From Solibacillus sp. FSL H8-0538 (GTDB lineage Bacteria; Bacillota; Bacilli; Bacillales_A; Planococcaceae), in contig NZ_JBBOPI010000001.1 of assembly GCF_038003525.1 (NCBI RefSeq), positions 2,285,001-2,349,000 of the forward strand: 64,000 nt of DNA, given 5' to 3'. The stretch's first letter is position 1. Each line of letters opens with the position of its first letter. Of the stretch, positions 28,150 to 28,406 are shown one piece after another. Both the position numbers and the translations under genes were made by a program. Under the pieces are notes generated by a model that worked only from the letters and a program-made list of their open reading frames with translations, had not been told where the DNA came from and did no database searches.

Positions 28150-28406
28150 ATACTTGAATCCAAATGAGCGACATTTTTAAGTGCTGATATTTGCCAGAAT
28201 CATCGAAATTAACGCCTTATTTTACTAAACGTAGACCAAGTATCCCTGCATTCGAAAGACACAACTCGCCCAAAATAGGGCGAGTTGATGTCCTTACTTA
28301 TGCGGATGGGAAAGGTATACGTTCTTATCCACTAAAAATTATTATTTTTCTGTGGATGCTCAACAATTGCTGTAATGTGGTGAATACCTGTTGTATGTTT
28401 TGTCAT
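28150..28406 (-). pseudogene. Relic of a ring-cleaving dioxygenase (mhqO-like), split by a THR copy
   Basis: Minus strand from ATG 28406 (GGAGGAGAG site) reads MTKHTTGIHHITAIVEHPQKN, the N-terminus of VOC-family ring-cleaving dioxygenases/glyoxalases. The frame then runs into THR copy 9 and a stop. Beyond the repeat coding sense resumes (AGILGLRLVK, stop, GVNFDDSGKY), matching the next residues of the family, then fades near 28150. It follows the nitroreductase gene, the order of mhqN-mhqO. About 200 further residues are lost. Confidence 0.85.
28251..28332 (-). repeat. THR two-hairpin repeat, copy 9 (inside the mhqO relic)
   Basis: A full copy with H1 CAACTCGCCC / GGGCGAGTTG, a paired change from CATCTC/GAGATG. 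H2 GCGGATGGGAAAGG / CGTTCTTATCCAC is imperfect. It separates codons about 23 and 25 of the dioxygenase relic with no target duplication seen. Confidence 0.93.

Follow-up and report, generated by a model that had tools for sequence, protein, structure and literature searches.

A two-hairpin mobile repeat that appears to seek terminator T-tracts in Solibacillus and related genera

The palindrome-associated transposable elements (PATEs) of Haloquadratum carry no transposase and have palindromes near their ends (PMC3119063). Insertion sequences of the IS200/IS605 group have subterminal hairpins and prefer the lagging-strand template; they enter 3' of a fixed short sequence without duplicating the target (PMC6006769, PMC7290912). 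The bcr1 group A repeats of the Bacillus cereus group are short and mobile, occur in high copy number with a TTTAT motif, and have a mechanism described as site-specific-recombination-like (PMC6542083). Here, we describe a repeat of approximately 82 nt without a gene (called THR here) in Solibacillus sp. FSL H8-0538, one copy of which lies within a gene relic in the analysed 64,000-nt stretch of contig NZ_JBBOPI010000001.1 (the window; unprefixed positions refer to it). THR is a terminator-seeking two-hairpin element present in several genera, and the PATEs are the nearest known kind. Both lack a transposase and terminal inverted repeats, both have near-terminal palindromes, and the PATEs have been linked to IS605-type movement. 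The two differ in that PATE ends are related to those of IS605-type elements, whereas no parent was found for THR; THR is also short, bacterial and partial to terminator T-tracts, whereas the PATEs are haloarchaeal. The lack of terminal inverted repeats and of target duplication separates THR from classical MITEs. The likeness to bcr1 is one of description: TTTA/T (the slash marks the point of insertion) occurs at the two best empty sites of THR, which we regard as a lead.

The consensus of 81 full copies is GTGGATAAGAAAGTATAACTTTCCCATCCACATAAGTAAGGACATCAACTCGCCCTATTTTGGGCGAGTTGTGTCTTTCTAA. The element runs from a left end, GTGGATAAG, to a right end, TTTCTAA, with a subterminal imperfect palindrome at each end. 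The copy in the relic occupies 82 nt of the minus strand (28251–28332; GTGGATAAGAACG...GTGTCTTTCGAA), as defined by the consensus and by gapless alignment of the joined flanks to intact mhqO. Hairpin 1 (28302–28332, minus) abuts the left end and is weakened in this copy by substitutions. A conserved spacer, ATAAGTAAG (28293–28301, minus), which was identified from alignments of the copies, leads to hairpin 2 (28258–28292, minus), a stem of 14 bp in which one T, four pairs up from the foot, is unpaired. The final bases form the tail TTTCGAA (28251–28257, minus; consensus TTTCTAA). Both hairpins are borne out by covariation over 71 distinct copies, in which compensated cells numbered 41 against 13 in shuffles and 26 against 7.6. 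An alignment including 12 copies from two other genera gave a cross-genus covariation of 0.243 against 0.120. Kept in that alignment are the CATAAG spacer, the GACATCA foot, in which a T is unpaired, and the tail TTTCTAA. On folding with DNA parameters, three copies scored lower than shuffled sequences by 5 to 13 standard deviations, and the relic copy was also folded. The tetranucleotide TAAG stands 5' of hairpin 2 and of the inner part of hairpin 1; it could pair with TTTA, as guide bases that recognise the cleavage sites would, and these bases are invariant across copies.

The relic derives from an mhqO-type ring-cleaving dioxygenase gene. Its ribosome site (ggaggagag) and its ATG (28406–28404) can be read directly on the minus strand (28404–28419), as the first-pass annotation had reported. 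The 5' piece (28333–28406, minus) reads MTKHTTGIHHITAIVEHPQKNNNF from the ATG, comprises codons 1–24 and the TA of codon 25, and ends in the target tract TTTTTA (28338–28333). That annotation had described 21 dioxygenase residues followed by a repeat set cleanly between codons of about 23 and 25; the dioxygenase start and the clean junction hold, but 24 codons precede the insert and codon 25 itself is split (TA/T). After the insert of 82 nt, the relic resumes with TGCAGGGATACTT..., which reads (Y)AGILGLRLVK, a stop and GVNFDDSGKYQ. Both segments that had been reported to follow, AGILGLRLVK and VNFDDSGKY, are present, with the in-frame stop, at codon 36, between them. The 3' piece (28141–28250, minus) closes with SLIWIQVYSLD, similar to SLIPIQVRPLD at the C-terminus (residues 303–313) of an intact mhqO product from a relative (L074); this match has an E value of 0.12 alone and lies in the place expected. 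From this match, approximately 250 internal codons have been lost between GKYQH and SLIWIQVYSLD. Given this loss and the stop at codon 36, the insertion of THR need not have killed the gene. An intact mhqN-type nitroreductase gene lies upstream (28425–29042, minus) and served as the anchor of synteny in comparisons with relatives, and a perfect inverted repeat, probably a terminator, lies behind the relic (28096–28131, no strand given).

Intact mhqO genes are found directly behind mhqN, in the arrangement of the relic, in two relatives (L074 and L075). When aligned with these genes, a comparison that the first-pass annotation had proposed, the joined flanks of the relic match over 140 nt at 80% identity without a gap (5–144 against 4–143). 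The junction on the minus strand is TTTTTA, insert, TGCAGG; the limits of the insert carry a one-base ambiguity, with an A at either end, and the absence of a target duplication noted earlier is borne out. Two further filled sites were compared with empty counterparts. A copy of a resident ISSep3-like IS200 (L104) holds a THR that is absent from the copies L102 and L103 and from more than 20 copies in relatives. Its joined flanks align with L102 over 240 nt at 97.9% identity and 0 gaps, and with L103, also with 0 gaps. The 97% likeness of the IS200 copies to one another marks this insertion as recent. On contig C2 (C2:182949), THR interrupts a duplicated sequence; the paralogues of that sequence in L245 and L217 lack the insert and read TTTTTTCA/T, and the alignments show a gap of one or two bases inside the T-tract and none at the junction. 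All three junctions consist of a T-tract, (C)A, the insert and T, without target duplication. The THR copy in the relic is therefore an insertion, as had been claimed, and these filled and empty sites show by comparison of sequences that THR inserts with exact ends and without target duplication. The relic did lose a large internal part, and its spacing might in principle reflect a chance deletion or rearrangement beside a pre-existing repeat, with no insertion at all. We consider this extremely improbable, because flanks of 140 nt rejoin without loss or gain, two other sites have the same exact junction and the three empty sites contradict it. Two other loci considered as filled/empty pairs (L175 and L227) did not align cleanly and were left out. 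A scan of all THR copies for restored reading frames, run without a control, gave no further clean gene interruption.

The census combined pattern counts with approximately 120 stretches selected because they matched THR or its left end, and it gives at least 151 core matches in the genome (151 with up to three mismatches) and 174 left-end matches (up to three mismatches); the reversed control pattern returned 0 in both cases, which puts the abundance of the repeat far above chance. By nhmmer, the window holds 16 THR places. Besides the relic copy, those on the minus strand are at 4840–4921, 9088–9170, 18228–18306, 29956–30037, 35666–35750, 42172–42248 and 48335–48415, with diverged copies at 24979–25045, 58729–58800 and 63306–63385 and right halves only at 45090–45140 and 50755–50806. 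Plus-strand copies lie at 3346–3423 and, between FMN riboswitches identified with Rfam, at 25716–25795 and 25978–26059. Three consecutive FMN riboswitches stand there upstream of riboflavin genes, with THR copies in between (25537–26179, plus), and the unit of riboswitch and THR is apparently a tandem triplication. The window also contains a Bacillaceae-1 RNA (RF01690) match of 79 bits (31283–31349, minus). At the gathering threshold, no Rfam family matched at the THR loci. The family occurs in three related genera, namely the host genus and two more. Plasmids and phages searched for THR gave no match; a degenerate core pattern did hit 22 viral contigs, all of which the THR profile scored at noise level.

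The ends of THR are sharp over the 81 copies, with a T-tract at positions −7 to −2 and, at −1, an A (46 copies), T (18) or G (17). In 53% of full copies the tract follows the stem of an intrinsic terminator, compared to 6% of 1854 control T-tracts (p 9e-16), a contrast that may partly reflect the mostly intergenic position of THR, since the controls include intragenic tracts. Among 30 copies from other genera, 70% have such a stem. The mhqO site is without one and belongs to the minority type. We found no account of terminator-tract targeting by such elements in the literature searched, which included few subscription papers. A conserved gene ending in ...EIEIVK is followed by a terminator that bears THR-type elements both here (L227) and in two genomes of another genus (L256, L262), which may be either an old common insertion or one site used repeatedly. 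An upstream terminator-type stem at the insertion site is also a feature of class C group II introns (PMC7923331), and THR might be a retroelement relic spread in the same way. We regard this origin as highly unlikely: a search of the genome with RVT_1 gave no match anywhere and hence no intron reverse transcriptase, a group II intron would need more than 82 nt, inspection by eye revealed no domain V, and the THR loci are without Rfam matches.

The orientation of THR follows replication. The replichores were fixed from dnaA at base 1 and the skew switch near 1.75 Mb, and the same THR strand lies on the lagging-strand template in 111 of 130 copies (85%). By simple ORF calls, gene direction follows the replichore in 224 of 327 genes (69% leading). 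However, THR copies in convergent or divergent gaps still follow replication (36 of 45, p 3e-5, with the same simple ORF calls), as do 21 of the 27 copies whose upstream gene points the opposite way (p 1e-6); gene direction thus does not explain the strand bias. The THR in the IS200 copy L104 has the minority orientation. Across four closed genomes from two further genera, for which the origin was assumed at base 1 and the terminus at half the length, 80 of 99 copies obey the lagging-strand-template rule (25 of 26 in G082). By these comparisons at the sequence level, THR shows both a preference for terminator tracts and an orientation bias. The genome-wide strand bias could be partly due to selection after insertion. 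A conserved structure with strong polarity in several genera would also suit a selected chromosomal or RNA signal, such as a polar architecture motif or an mRNA 3' stabiliser, of which the relic copy would be a by-product. This reading is very unlikely, as insertions are found in an IS200 and in a dead gene and no T-run follows the right arm; its position immediately after the termination tract also puts most of THR outside the transcript.

These properties are best explained by a non-autonomous, PATE-like two-hairpin element that is probably moved by IS200/IS605-like single-strand transposition. The first-pass annotation had proposed this route, and several features fit it: the absence of duplication, the subterminal hairpins, a short target that is fixed, and the placing of one particular strand on the lagging-strand template. 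In the proposed mechanism, THR would be excised as single-stranded DNA, its hairpins being recognised by a Y1 HUH transposase that must act in trans, since THR has no gene. Insertion would take place into DNA left single-stranded behind the replication fork. The preferred target is the intrinsic-terminator T-tract on the lagging-strand template strand. The left end GTGGATAAG joins directly 3' to a T-tract whose last base is A or, less often, G or T; the right end TTTCTAA joins the next target base, and target bases are neither gained nor lost. Either the TnpA of the resident IS200 or a transposase since lost could supply the activity. Several observations speak against this route. Hairpin 1 lies directly at the left end, whereas the left hairpin of IS608 lies some way inside the element; the insertion in L104 has the minority orientation; and no transposase with matching ends was found in this genome or near the Y1 genes of THR-bearing relatives. 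The distribution of THR relative to the ISSep3-like IS200 and to Y1 genes in relatives, given below, also counts against it.

THR differs from IS200/IS605 elements in that it encodes no Y1 HUH transposase, and no tnpA or other transposase gene is flanked by THR-like ends in this genome. We looked for an autonomous parent through the left end; of the 20 places recovered, most proved to be whole or partial copies of THR, and two belonged to a second repeat family. No parent sharing the ends of THR was found in the genome or in the relatives examined. Three copies of the ISSep3-like IS200, with a TnpA of 157 aa, form the sole intact Y1 family of the genome, and a fragment of a second, decayed Y1 transposase is also present (L105, C2:43897-44076). 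As a special case of the IS200/IS605-like route, this TnpA might move THR in trans. The IS200 resembles THR in its subterminal hairpins, lack of target duplication and insertion 3' of a T-tract, and it has been mobile recently, as the 97% likeness of its copies indicates. It also adjoins terminators with the same polarity, which makes it a candidate mover: across the bacterial family, 20 of 25 scored copies (L281-L306, L103, L104) immediately follow a terminator stem with its T-tract. However, its hairpins and right-end bases differ from those of THR. Of the 12 THR-bearing relatives, none was among the 22 relatives with this IS200 (overlapping samples; p 0.2), and THR persists in many copies in two genomes without a detected Y1 match (G119 and G082). 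Because the ends differ and the two do not co-occur in the relatives sampled, we put forward this particular IS200 only tentatively, as a rather doubtful assignment, whereas the route itself is probable.

THR shares with REP/REPIN sequences a high copy number, palindromes and the proposed use of a Y1 HUH enzyme. It is intergenic, and some THR-bearing relatives encode Y1 proteins of 197–203 aa that resemble RAYT (TnpA_REP) and have weaker Y1_Tnp scores, so that mobilization as a REP/REPIN-like palindrome by a RAYT has to be weighed. No such gene is present in this genome, in which only the IS200 and the decayed fragment were found. In the THR-bearing relatives, no THR lies within 1.5 kb of a Y1 gene, the 197–203 aa genes included. 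REPs are 20–40 bp long, most of them with a GTAG or CGTC tag (PMC3733652), and THR has no GTAG tag and differs in length and target. With the distribution also against it, this explanation is quite unlikely.

A second dispersed repeat, GC-rich and approximately 160 nt long, occurs with an orientation bias in at least 40 places (L206, L216, L221-L250). Several of its copies have the first 22 bases of THR and the T-tract target, and several directly follow a THR. One could envisage a guild of unrelated non-coding elements, THR and the GC-rich repeat among them, moved by an unrecognised single-strand system that homes on terminator T-tracts behind the fork and for which a known Y1 transposase would be dispensable. 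We consider such a guild improbable.

THR is a compact mobile element of bacteria for which the sequence by itself reveals the ends, the empty sites, the target and the choice of strand. A preference for terminator tracts would amount to a safe-harbour strategy: the T-tract remains intact, and a copy inserted behind a gene therefore carries little cost. Because THR and the ISSep3-like IS200 both choose terminators, one can test whether the signal is the terminator hairpin itself when it lies on the lagging-strand template. Orphan hairpin repeats are numerous in Firmicutes, and THR offers a well-defined case in which to look for the enzyme that moves them.
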